Shown here piece by piece: positions 18,397 to 20,834 of a stretch of 64,000 bases of DNA. The notes below the pieces were generated by a model. That model did no database searches and was not told the origin of the DNA. It saw nothing but the letters and a program-made list of their open reading frames with translations. The stretch is from Catenovulum maritimum (GTDB taxonomy: Bacteria > Pseudomonadota > Gammaproteobacteria > Enterobacterales > Alteromonadaceae), in contig NZ_KQ130485.1 in the NCBI RefSeq assembly GCF_001050375.1, positions 124,001 to 188,000 of the forward strand, written 5' to 3'. Position 1 is the stretch's first letter; every line of letters starts with the position of its first letter. The translations under genes and the position numbers were made by a program.

Positions 18397-18508
18397 TTTG
18401 AATTCCTTTTAGTATTTGGATAAATCTAAAAAATAATAATATCGCGATAAGAATTAAGCTGGTCGCGATTACTGAGCTAGCACTCAACTCAAAACTGAAA
18501 ATATTCAT
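18386..18508 (-). CDS. 40-aa single-pass membrane microprotein, candidate
   Basis: A short open frame of 40 codons from ATG to TAA. The product has a polar N-terminus (MNIFSFELSASS), one clear membrane helix (VIATSLILIAILLFFRF, about residues 13-29) and a basic tail (ILKGIQIDS). Its stop lies 11 bases inside the TTG-started ceramidase-like gene, and its last codons contain that gene's Shine-Dalgarno. No strong ribosome site precedes its own ATG, which lowers confidence. I do not know a homologue. It could be a small partner of the membrane enzyme or a leader peptide that couples its translation. Confidence 0.4.
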   Translation of the reverse strand: MNIFSFELSASSVIATSLILIAILLFFRFIQILKGIQIDS

Positions 18509-18521
18509 AGGCTTATTTAAT

Positions 18522-18555
18522 GAGGAGCTGGCGGTTTGTCCAGCTCCTCGTTTTT
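18522..18555 (+). terminator. Strong terminator-like hairpin without an obvious upstream gene
   Basis: A perfect ten-pair GC-rich stem (GAGGAGCTGG / CCAGCTCCTC, eight-base loop) is followed by G and five T on the plus strand. No plus-strand gene ends here. On the minus strand it lies in the leader just upstream of the 40-codon frame. Confidence 0.6.
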
Positions 18556-18578
18556 AACTCATTTATTATTGGTTAATC

Positions 18579-18846
18579 TAGGGGCTGTTGACGTTTGATG
18601 TACAAATTTTGTTCTAACTAAATGCTTTTTTAATCGAGGCGCAGCGTTGAAGGCCTAATGGATTAAGTCAAAACGCTGTAACAAAGAGTAAAACGCATTT
18701 AGGACGAACCTGAAAGGCAGCGTTTGTTTGGCATTTCTTCTACGTTATAGCTCATTTGTGTAGCGCACTACACGTCAATCACTATGCCTTGTATAAATAC
18801 CAAACAAACAGCTGCAAAATTGTACTCAAAAGATCAACAGACCCTA
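18579..18846. mobile_element. MITE-like element with imperfect terminal inverted repeats
   Basis: A 268-base block, including the flanking TA pair, bounded by inverted ends of about 30 bases: the left starts GGGGCTGTTGACGTTTGATG (18581) and the right, read inward, starts GGGTCTGTTGATCTTTTGAG; both then read GTACA..ATTTTG. TA flanks each side, as expected of a two-base target duplication by Tc1/mariner/IS630-type transposases. There is no transposase gene inside, and a short palindrome GTGTAG-CGCA-CTACAC lies at about 18757-18772. Non-autonomous status and TA targeting are inference. The right end lies within the 3' end of the VIT/VWA gene. Confidence 0.65.
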
Positions 18847-20834
18847 ACAAATTTAATAACCCCGAAACACAGCACTAGCAGAATGCTTATACTGCCGCCT
18901 CCACTGCCTGAGCCAGAACTATTACTTGTTGTTGCTCTAGCGCCGCCAAAGTTTTGCTCTGAACCTGATATATGATTTGAACTTGGTTGAATGTTTTTCC
19001 TGGTTTCTCTTGCTTGGCTCTCCAGCTTAACTCTTTGTGCATTTTTACGCTGAATGCCTAAATCTTCGTATTCAGCTTCAGTGAGCAATAACATAGAGGT
19101 GTAGTCTGTTACTAAGCCATACTCTAATGCGATATCTGTGATTGCTTGGGTTGCATCGTCTGTTTTACCAAATCGACGCTGCTTTTCTTCTATATCCAAA
19201 ATTTGAGCGTAGGCACTTAGTCTTTCTATTTCTGGGTATTGAGTTGATTCACTTGGCAAATCAAACTTTGCTTGATAACGAATAGGTTTACCTGACACTT
19301 TGGCCGATACTATTAATTCTACTTGCTCTGCCTTATGATATTGACCAAACAAAGTGAGTTGTTCGCCACGATATAAACTTTGTATTTCTGCTGGATTCAA
19401 GTTGATGACTTTGCCACCTTTTATTTTAATCTCTATATCATGCATTGCGGTATGGCTAACCTTACTAGCAGCAAGCATCACCTTACCTACAATATCATCA
19501 CTATTTGAAATGGTTTGCGCAAAACCATTACTTTGCTTGGCTAAGTGTTCAAGTAGTGGTGCGTTGGCATTGTTGCCCATAATAAAAGTGAATAATCGAA
19601 TATCTTTTTTATCTAATAAAGCCATTAGCTTGCGCTCACTTTTTTCTCCAACTGTCGCTACGCCATCCGTTACTAATACTATGCCTGAGGTTCTATCTCT
19701 ATCTATGCCAGATACACTTTCTCTAACCGCTTTATATAAATTTGTACCATCACTTGGAGCGTAATTTTGCATTGCTGCTATAAGTTGCTGCTTACCCTCT
19801 GCATCAAGTTGAACATAACCATTGGTGATGTCTTTAGTATTGTTATCGAACATTAGAATACGAACCCGGTTATTGGCAGGCATTTTGTTGATTGCGATTT
19901 CTACACCCGCTAGCAGACTATGCCATTTGCCTTGCATAGAGCCAGATTTATCTAAAACAAAAGTCCAATCCGAACCCTGATTGATAGGTTGTAAATCATT
20001 GCCTGGGGTTAAGGTCAGCATAAAAGTGCCTTGATTCGCATTTTGGGTTTTATAACTTATTAAGTTTAGTCCTGCAGGAGCATTGTCTGCTAAGCGCCAG
20101 TAAGCCAAAATATCTTGATTGAGTGAAAAGCTTTGTCCGCCTTCTACACCTGAATTAGTGAAACTGACTTGCCATTCTTGTTCTGAAATTTGTTGAATAT
20201 TAGCTTGAGGATGTTTTGGCAATCTGAAACTATCAATTGGATAGCTTGAGTGTAGGTTTAAGTTAAAGCTAAATAACTGAGTTACTTTGTCATTGCGACT
20301 CCAAAATGCATTAGCTACTTCATCTGTTCCTCCATTTTCTAGAGCATAGTTAAGCTCAAATATGCCATGGTCTGCTTTTAATTTTTGGATATAAACTAAT
20401 TTTATCTTGGCATCTTGCTGTGCCAAAACTTGAGTGAGCTTTATTTTAAAATCATAGAACTTATTTTGCTCGACTAAGGCGGCGTTTTTCCCGGCTGCTT
20501 TTTGCTTTTGATAAATTTGTTTTGCTTGTTCTTTTTTTACCACTTCAGCTTGGATCTCTTGTCCGTTCAACCACCAAGAAAATTGACCAACTGCAGCGTA
20601 ATTAGGTACTGGAAATTGATAAATGGCTTCGAGATCTTGCTGGCTTGGGTTAAAAAAGGTTTGTTCAATACTAACGACAGCAAGATTATCAAAAACTTGG
20701 ATATCAACTTTATGTTCTGTTAGTTCTAGCTCGGGTAGTTGGCTATTTGTTGGCTTAATTAAACCTGCAGCCTGAGCGCTCGAAATAGCGAATAAACTTA
20801 TTAGGCTTAAAACAGCAATACGGAGTATATTCAT
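18834..20834 (-). CDS. VIT and VWA domain surface protein
   Basis: A 666-aa exported protein with a signal peptide (residues 1-22, ISSAQA). A VIT domain spans about 33-160 (EQTFFNPSQQDLEAIYQFPVP), and a von Willebrand A domain starts at about 290 with an intact metal site: DKSGS at 295-299, SDGT and VTDG. Related proteins are envelope-anchored adhesion or inter-alpha-inhibitor-like proteins, sometimes with sortase-like C-terminal signals. Here the tail is a Ser/Gly tract, a hydrophobic stretch (ISILLVLCFGV) and a short basic end, a GlyGly-CTERM-like layout recognised by rhombosortase in related bacteria. AAGGAAA precedes the ATG. The final three codons and the stop come from the MITE-like repeat. 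Confidence 0.85.
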   Translation of the reverse strand: MNILRIAVLSLISLFAISSAQAAGLIKPTNSQLPELELTEHKVDIQVFDNLAVVSIEQTFFNPSQQDLEAIYQFPVPNYAAVGQFSWWLNGQEIQAEVVKKEQAKQIYQKQKAAGKNAALVEQNKFYDFKIKLTQVLAQQDAKIKLVYIQKLKADHGIFELNYALENGGTDEVANAFWSRNDKVTQLFSFNLNLHSSYPIDSFRLPKHPQANIQQISEQEWQVSFTNSGVEGGQSFSLNQDILAYWRLADNAPAGLNLISYKTQNANQGTFMLTLTPGNDLQPINQGSDWTFVLDKSGSMQGKWHSLLAGVEIAINKMPANNRVRILMFDNNTKDITNGYVQLDAEGKQQLIAAMQNYAPSDGTNLYKAVRESVSGIDRDRTSGIVLVTDGVATVGEKSERKLMALLDKKDIRLFTFIMGNNANAPLLEHLAKQSNGFAQTISNSDDIVGKVMLAASKVSHTAMHDIEIKIKGGKVINLNPAEIQSLYRGEQLTLFGQYHKAEQVELIVSAKVSGKPIRYQAKFDLPSESTQYPEIERLSAYAQILDIEEKQRRFGKTDDATQAITDIALEYGLVTDYTSMLLLTEAEYEDLGIQRKNAQRVKLESQARETRKNIQPSSNHISGSEQNFGGARATTSNSSGSGSGGGSISILLVLCFGVIKFVRVC

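Follow-up and report, generated by a model that had tools for sequence, protein, structure and literature searches.

A miniature inverted-repeat element whose end supplies the last codons and the stop of a VIT/VWA surface-protein gene in Catenovulum maritimum

Introduction

What becomes of a protein when a transposable element settles within the last codons of its gene? The question is raised by positions 18,579 to 18,846 of a stretch of 64,000 nucleotides from Catenovulum maritimum (assembly GCF_001050375.1, contig NZ_KQ130485.1, positions 124,001 to 188,000; this whole stretch is referred to as the window), where a miniature inverted-repeat transposable element (MITE) reaches into the 3′ end of a gene for a surface protein with VIT and VWA domains (the VIT/VWA gene) and supplies its stop codon. 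An earlier note on this DNA had described this arrangement and had taken it for a direct case of a mobile element redesigning a protein tail. That interpretation holds in its outline but overstates the effect: the tail did change, but only two new residues, Val and Cys, stand in place of LTNNK, the conserved arginine was rebuilt, and both a lysine and an arginine are kept. We consider it very likely that the locus as a whole is explained by a trans-mobilised MITE with stop-bearing ends, inserted into a conserved Arg codon and followed by a tolerated exchange of the tail. The VIT/VWA insertion is one of many similar events within this element family, and the wider family is of greater interest than the single case.

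The junction of element and gene

The gene is read on the minus strand into the right inverted repeat of the element, where its last codons are AGG (18845–18843), GTC (18842–18840), TGT (18839–18837) and TGA (18836–18834). The encoded protein has a Gly-rich linker, a hydrophobic stretch and a basic end, and now closes with ...KFVRVC. The earlier note had all of Arg-Val-Cys and the TGA read from the repeat; this holds for Val, Cys, TGA and the GG of the Arg codon, but the A of that codon belongs to the target TA, and the arginine was already native. Removal of the MITE together with one TA restores an empty-site reading that ends in ...GVIKFVRLTNNK and a stop, in longer form ...SGSGSGGGSISILLVLCFGVIKFVRLTNNK, a protein of 669 aa that includes ...KFVRLTNNK. 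The conserved Arg codon was thus cut by the insertion and rebuilt from AGA to AGG, with VC in the place of LTNNK.

How far this native end agrees with relatives was judged from orthologues. The VIT/VWA protein has a match in 145 of the 295 genomes sampled from the family, and a close group is formed by 11 genomes besides the own one; nine tails of this group are readable, two orthologues (L024, cut by a contig end, and L029, split) having been left out. A further scan of contigs with the same protein gave two matches at 42–45% identity. Within the genus the gene is present in two of eight genomes, that of C. maritimum and a second one (G005), whose orthologue (L019) is the sole one found in the same genus. 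Its tail, ...CLFRLNNRAGELYK followed by a stop, resembles the empty-site tail (terminal residues ...LFRLNNRAGELYK; fuller stretch ...SGGGSINIWVLLFLPLVCLFRLNNRAGELYK). The tail of each of the nine readable orthologues comprises a Gly-rich and a hydrophobic stretch together with one or more basic residues, and an arginine lies exactly 17 residues after the GG in all nine as well as in the present and the empty-site tails. Orthologues with the same C-terminal residues and no element had been named in the earlier note as one finding that would overturn its reading; none of the nine ends in VRVC, the nearest exception being L023, which ends in ...GKVC without the element. The close relatives (L019–L028) carry GlyGly-CTERM-like tails, and LPQTA- or MPKTA-like ones are found in many VIT/VWA proteins of this bacterial family that are related more distantly (L030–L047).

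The coordinates of all features are collected in Table 1. The inverted repeat that directly follows the native stop has a run of T on the plus strand, and the MITE now stands between it and the gene. It was not recovered by a terminator scan, and a simple scan of 18400–18900 gave no promoter- or terminator-like sites.

Table 1. Features at the 3′ end of the VIT/VWA gene (positions in the window).
Feature	Position	Strand or outer base	Basis and remarks
MITE	18581–18844	no strand	264 bp between the TAs; sequence read and repeat family
TA target duplication, left copy	18579–18580	outer base C	sequence and target tally
TA target duplication, right copy	18845–18846	outer base A	its T is read as the A of the minus-strand Arg codon
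Left terminal inverted repeat GGGGCTGTTGACGTTT	18581–18596	+	sequence, paired-copy survey
Right terminal inverted repeat GGGTCTGTTGATCTTT	18829–18844	−	gene reads into this end
VIT and VWA surface-protein gene, 666 aa	18834–20834	−	open reading frame, Pfam VIT and VWA, orthologues
AGG GTC TGT TGA (Arg codon rebuilt; element-derived Val, Cys and stop)	18834–18845	−	sequence and open reading frame
Relic of native 3′ end (remainder of AGA codon, then TTA ACC AAT AAT AAA TGA)	18559–18578	−	empty-site translation
Inverted repeat, possible terminator	18519–18552	no strand	adjoins native stop; now displaced downstream of the MITE

Copies, target site and spread of the element

Terminal inverted repeats, a flanking TA duplication and many short copies free of a transposase characterize the element as a MITE, in keeping with the earlier note, and no open reading frame (ORF) of at least 60 aa lies wholly within the copy at 18581–18844. 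Rfam holds no family for it; the best match is a sub-threshold one to GlmZ (14.2 bits, gathering threshold 60). The note had proposed a search for further copies, whose absence would also have overturned its reading, and for the TA duplication, and both were found. The genome of C. maritimum contains 17 matching places, the window element included, and three other copies match almost end to end. A sister copy used as the query matched seven of the eight genus genomes, and a 24-base end pattern occurs in all eight, with 28 occurrences in the own genome against one for a reversed control, and two against none in G004; a 13-base end pattern with two mismatches was less clear-cut (116 versus 67 for the control).

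In the eight Catenovulum genomes, at least 85 copies with paired ends were collected, of which 36 have ends that fit the pairing pattern perfectly; their loci were picked from the search matches listed (in G006 likewise among the matches listed), and two recognisable ends were required. These copies vary in length. Over both ends, 69 of them show at most two mismatches and 16 show three to five, some of the latter being possibly chance pairs. The outer bases at the TA read CTAG in 43 copies, TTAG in 17, CTAA in 11, TTAA in five and otherwise in nine. In 33 of the 85 the site fits YTAR without being CTAG, and such copies have no more than the TA in common; hence insertion takes place at YTAR and duplicates TA.

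The spread extends well beyond the genus: matches to the window element occur in 129 of the 295 genomes sampled from the family and in 38 of its 52 sampled genera, ten plasmid records (Pseudoalteromonas, Vibrio, Catenovulum) match the sister copy, and three loci on viral contigs show the end pattern. An element so old and widespread might be thought to have belonged to the 3′ region of the gene from the start and to have been lost in the orthologues, and thus to be no insertion at all. This is highly improbable: an element end follows the stop in none of the nine readable orthologues (60 bases inspected), and copies elsewhere have TA at both ends and varied neighbouring genes. The ancestral reading was rejected on account of the orthologues without the element, and insertion of the MITE into an existing gene is retained.

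Two observations concern the composition of the family. In G005 there is another 268-bp MITE whose ends are similar and whose interior is largely different (L086, 1646–1913; L088, 1170–1703); its best local alignment to the element spans only about the last 100 bases, and its hairpin layout looks similar by eye. In L088 two copies are nested or in tandem and have one TA in common. Further, a contig of the own genome (G000:C34:23907-24010, L219) breaks off 104 bases into an element end; the assembly may therefore lack some copies, one of them perhaps longer.

The sorting signal and the effect on the protein

The GlyGly-CTERM/rhombosortase system is described as a GG motif, a helix and a basic end, and one figure panel aligns VIT/VWA proteins with such tails (PMC3237569). 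The tail in the window has the corresponding layout: GGGS, a hydrophobic stretch and Arg at GG+16, with the same spacing as in the nine readable orthologues. A rhombosortase (TIGR03902) is encoded in the own genome at G000:C1:178683-179135 (162.4 bits, cut-off 84), and all eight genus genomes have one above the cut-off, whereas 14 control genomes match below it only. The statement of the earlier note that the native C-terminus was replaced at the basic end of such a signal is borne out by the empty site, the orthologue tails and the rhombosortase, and the VIT/VWA protein would presumably be processed by this enzyme. The marine sortase target model TIGR03788 is not passed (209 bits against 551.65), and unlike in many of the more distant relatives, no LPXTG-like motif is seen by eye in the window tail.

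Did the exchange alter the fate of the protein? With the loss of the last Lys and the gain of a C-terminal Cys, sorting might have changed, for example towards release instead of retention at the surface. The basic end can matter, because VesB lacking its last five residues, charges included, is released from Vibrio cholerae cells, as reported in PMC6219818. The window tail is also the shortest after the GG, with 19 residues compared with 23–46 in the nine orthologues and 22 in the empty site. We nevertheless regard an altered fate as unlikely. A lysine and the conserved arginine are still present in the window tail, orthologue L026 has but a single K or R after its GG, and the GlyGly-CTERM-type model NF038115 scores the two tails alike (13.6 and 13.9 bits for inputs of 60 and 75 residues, both far under the cut-off of 150). 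Gross damage to the signal was rejected for the same reasons, Arg being kept and the model score barely shifted. The GlyGly-CTERM-like signal is probably intact after the insertion, and the exchange of LTNNK for VC was probably near neutral.

Recurrence at gene ends

The same kind of event recurs throughout the family. Among the 170 sides of the 85 Catenovulum copies, 12 have an ORF of at least 70 codons that stops in or at the element. In seven of the 85 copies the element inserted exactly in a native TAA or TAG and rebuilt the stop, leaving the protein unchanged; three of these seven are sibling-type copies of G005 with their largely different interior. The genes concerned include ones that we take, from the look of their sequences, to resemble tRNA nucleotidyltransferase, DgkA and SixA. 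In four further cases a tail R-(V/T)-C and a stop are made through a second frame, three of them in the own genome (the VIT/VWA gene, a transporter gene at a degenerate copy with five end mismatches, and a 185-residue ORF) and one at a regulator gene in G006; the transporter is presumably of the RND type and the regulator of the LysR type. The remaining side, in G007, has a mutated element end. For the transporter, six loci were compared, the own one included: the empty site gives a native end ...NLDKPIDLALNSKH, and relatives end in ...LDQVKPVTKSN, ...LDKAKPHSPPQNSTN, ...LGKPINTQSE and ...LGKVDKATL, a fifth (L239) being unmatched at the tail.

In other genera, 18 of the 163 sides of 82 copies (taken from the family search as the best one to three matches per genome) qualify at gene ends; 15 rebuild the native stop exactly, one makes a TAG two codons early, and two run on into the element in the open frame. 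At two loci, L104 (position 1058) and L105 (1057), the first bases of an element end give the stop codon at the end of an ORF; with one recognised end each, they were left out of the counts. A role as RNA of one strand was considered from the orientation of the copies and rejected, the 15 stop-codon cases of other genera being split 6 versus 9 by transcript strand in a hand count.

This recurrence has its origin in the reading of the ends. Of the 170 Catenovulum ends, 150 give an immediate stop (frame TA-G) and 116 a stop after three codons (frame T-AGG), and the third frame is open for varying length; an element end thus serves as a stop cassette in all but one of the three frames. The first frame is used at stop codons only, because within a coding sequence a YTAR can lie in frame nowhere but at the stop. 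As a background, 121 second-frame and 145 third-frame sites are available over the final ten codons of Catenovulum ORFs; measured against these, four insertions using the second frame and none using an intact third frame are weak evidence at best.

Does the family insert specifically at stop codons or at the 3′ ends of genes, or is it that copies landing there survive? For 158 of 167 copies with sufficient flank, a background of matched targets was built with genes taken as ORFs of at least 70 or at least 100 aa, which are not curated calls. Stop codons received 20 of 140 non-coding insertions where 12.1 were expected (P 0.016; ORFs of at least 70 aa), or 19 of 143 against 9.5 (P 0.004; at least 100 aa). 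This excess comes from the other genera (13 of 70 versus 4.9, P 0.001; 13 of 68 versus 6.1, P 0.007), and not from Catenovulum, in which 7 of 72 versus 5.7 (P 0.34), 6 of 73 versus 4.4 (P 0.27) and, in a separate first test, 6 of 72 (P 0.48) give none. Moreover, any TAA or TAG stop after C or T is a YTAR site already, and only 13 of the 158 copies lie in coding interiors, compared with 14,555 of 18,841 background YTAR sites (about 77%), which amounts to strong purging; purging from promoters as well would raise the share of gene ends with no targeting at all. Specific targeting is accordingly quite unlikely in our estimation, a little more so than an altered fate of the protein, and the occurrence at gene ends is read as survival.

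The presumed mover and the proposed course of events

A candidate for the mover is found in G005, where two near-identical 886-bp transposons (both TAs counted) have ends TAGGGCGTGTTGATCTTTGT and TAGGGCCTGTTGATCTTTGT that match the MITE ends, and a flanking TA. They encode a 253-aa transposase of the IS5 family (NF033580, 275.5 bits, cut-off 110; PF13340/PF01609), a gene that the MITE lacks. Two degenerate 887-bp relatives with similar ends occur in G005 and G006; the loci of this transposon are L158 (3001–3886), L161, L157 and L190, intact in G005 and degenerate in G005 and G006.

The MITE was presumably mobilised in trans by such a transposase. In the sequence of events that we propose, an IS5-family transposase would have moved the non-autonomous 264-bp MITE to a CTAA target in the conserved Arg codon at the 3′ end of the VIT/VWA gene, the TA being duplicated. 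Each end reads TA-GGG..., so that a ribosome encounters TAG in one of the frames and AGG-GTS-TGT-TGA in a second; at this gene the latter is used, which restores Arg and puts VC and a stop in place of LTNNK and its stop. The insertion would have been tolerated because the protein probably kept its GlyGly-CTERM-like signal.

Several findings weigh against this account. The orthologues are only 42–49% identical over their best matches, and it is therefore the empty-site reading from which the native last residues are known; that site is a reconstruction, as no second strain of the species lacking the element was found. The own genome, a draft assembly of 47 contigs, gives no match to the G005 transposase at E 0.001, and the mover is therefore taken from the sister species. 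Lastly, the curated GlyGly-CTERM model TIGR03501 lists neither the window tail nor the empty-site tail, and a genome-wide search with it reported no match at the VIT/VWA gene, nor at the L019 gene. Among the nine orthologue tails only that of L019 passes (20.1 bits, cut-off 15.5); L020 stays just under the cut-off with 14.2 bits, and seven are not listed. Since the present and the empty-site tails are both unlisted, the insertion left the status under this model unchanged. Membership of the VIT/VWA protein in the GlyGly-CTERM class rests on its layout and the company of the rhombosortase, not on the model.

The fold of the element

An alignment of 26 copies supports a closing stem and hairpins, with compensatory changes in 35 of 70 pairs and a covariation score of 0.322, compared with 0.125 (standard deviation 0.007) in shuffled and 0.05–0.07 in slid versions. 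In a larger alignment of 105 copies (nine of 114 copies of 262–272 bp, all from G005, scored too low and were left out), 44 pairs are predicted from both strands, and their cells comprise 4267 Watson-Crick, 127 G-T, 58 A-C and 153 other combinations. The window copy has folding z values of −7.8 on the minus and −6.6 on the plus strand. Such strong covariation across genera suggests maintenance of the folded form, either through selection or through the correction of palindromes, and the excess of G-T hints at RNA. Template-switch correction of near-palindromes could also generate the pattern, as could relatedness of the copies alone. That the 268-bp element (both TAs) is a portable gene-end module crossing genera, with a selected fold, harmless landing at 3′ ends by virtue of its two stop-cassette ends and a ready-made 3′ untranslated structure, is a speculative idea that we think rather doubtful, if less so than targeting or an altered protein fate; if it were true, a spreading 3′ structure could influence the mRNAs that the element joins.

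Relation to known systems and significance

A search of open PMC papers, topics of MITEs, insertion and stop codons included, found no description of this element family. The closest likeness is offered by QMITE1 and QMITE2 of Coxiella burnetii, which according to PMC5896051 share 1–50 bp with functional genes at their 3′ ends; all affected functional annotated genes have their insertions at the 3′ end, and EnhC is extended C-terminally. Both are MITEs at gene 3′ ends, but element and host differ, and the QMITE passages of that paper contain no statement that ends rebuild a native stop or an invariant residue. ERIC, NEMIS/Correia, RUP, YPAL and RPE are likewise small inverted-repeat elements, most with a terminal TA, whose transcripts form long stem-loops and some of which lie in frame with host genes (PMC2229807). 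Several of these provide an open frame fused to host genes, whereas at most ends of the present element two of the three frames run into a stop immediately or after no more than three codons; the element also differs in its 268 bp and its multi-hairpin fold. The sister-genome IS5-family insertion sequences share its ends and flanking TA. As to the protein, the window tail shares the GlyGly-CTERM layout but is unlisted by the curated model, which the same-genus orthologue passes.

The locus provides a clean example of a small transposon within the last codons of a gene at almost no cost, the cost being low because either the stop codon or the final residue of importance is rebuilt from the element's own end. 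The recurrence of such insertions across a family of marine bacteria offers a testable reason for the accumulation of MITEs at gene ends, and the conserved fold makes the action of structured MITEs on the mRNAs they join directly testable.
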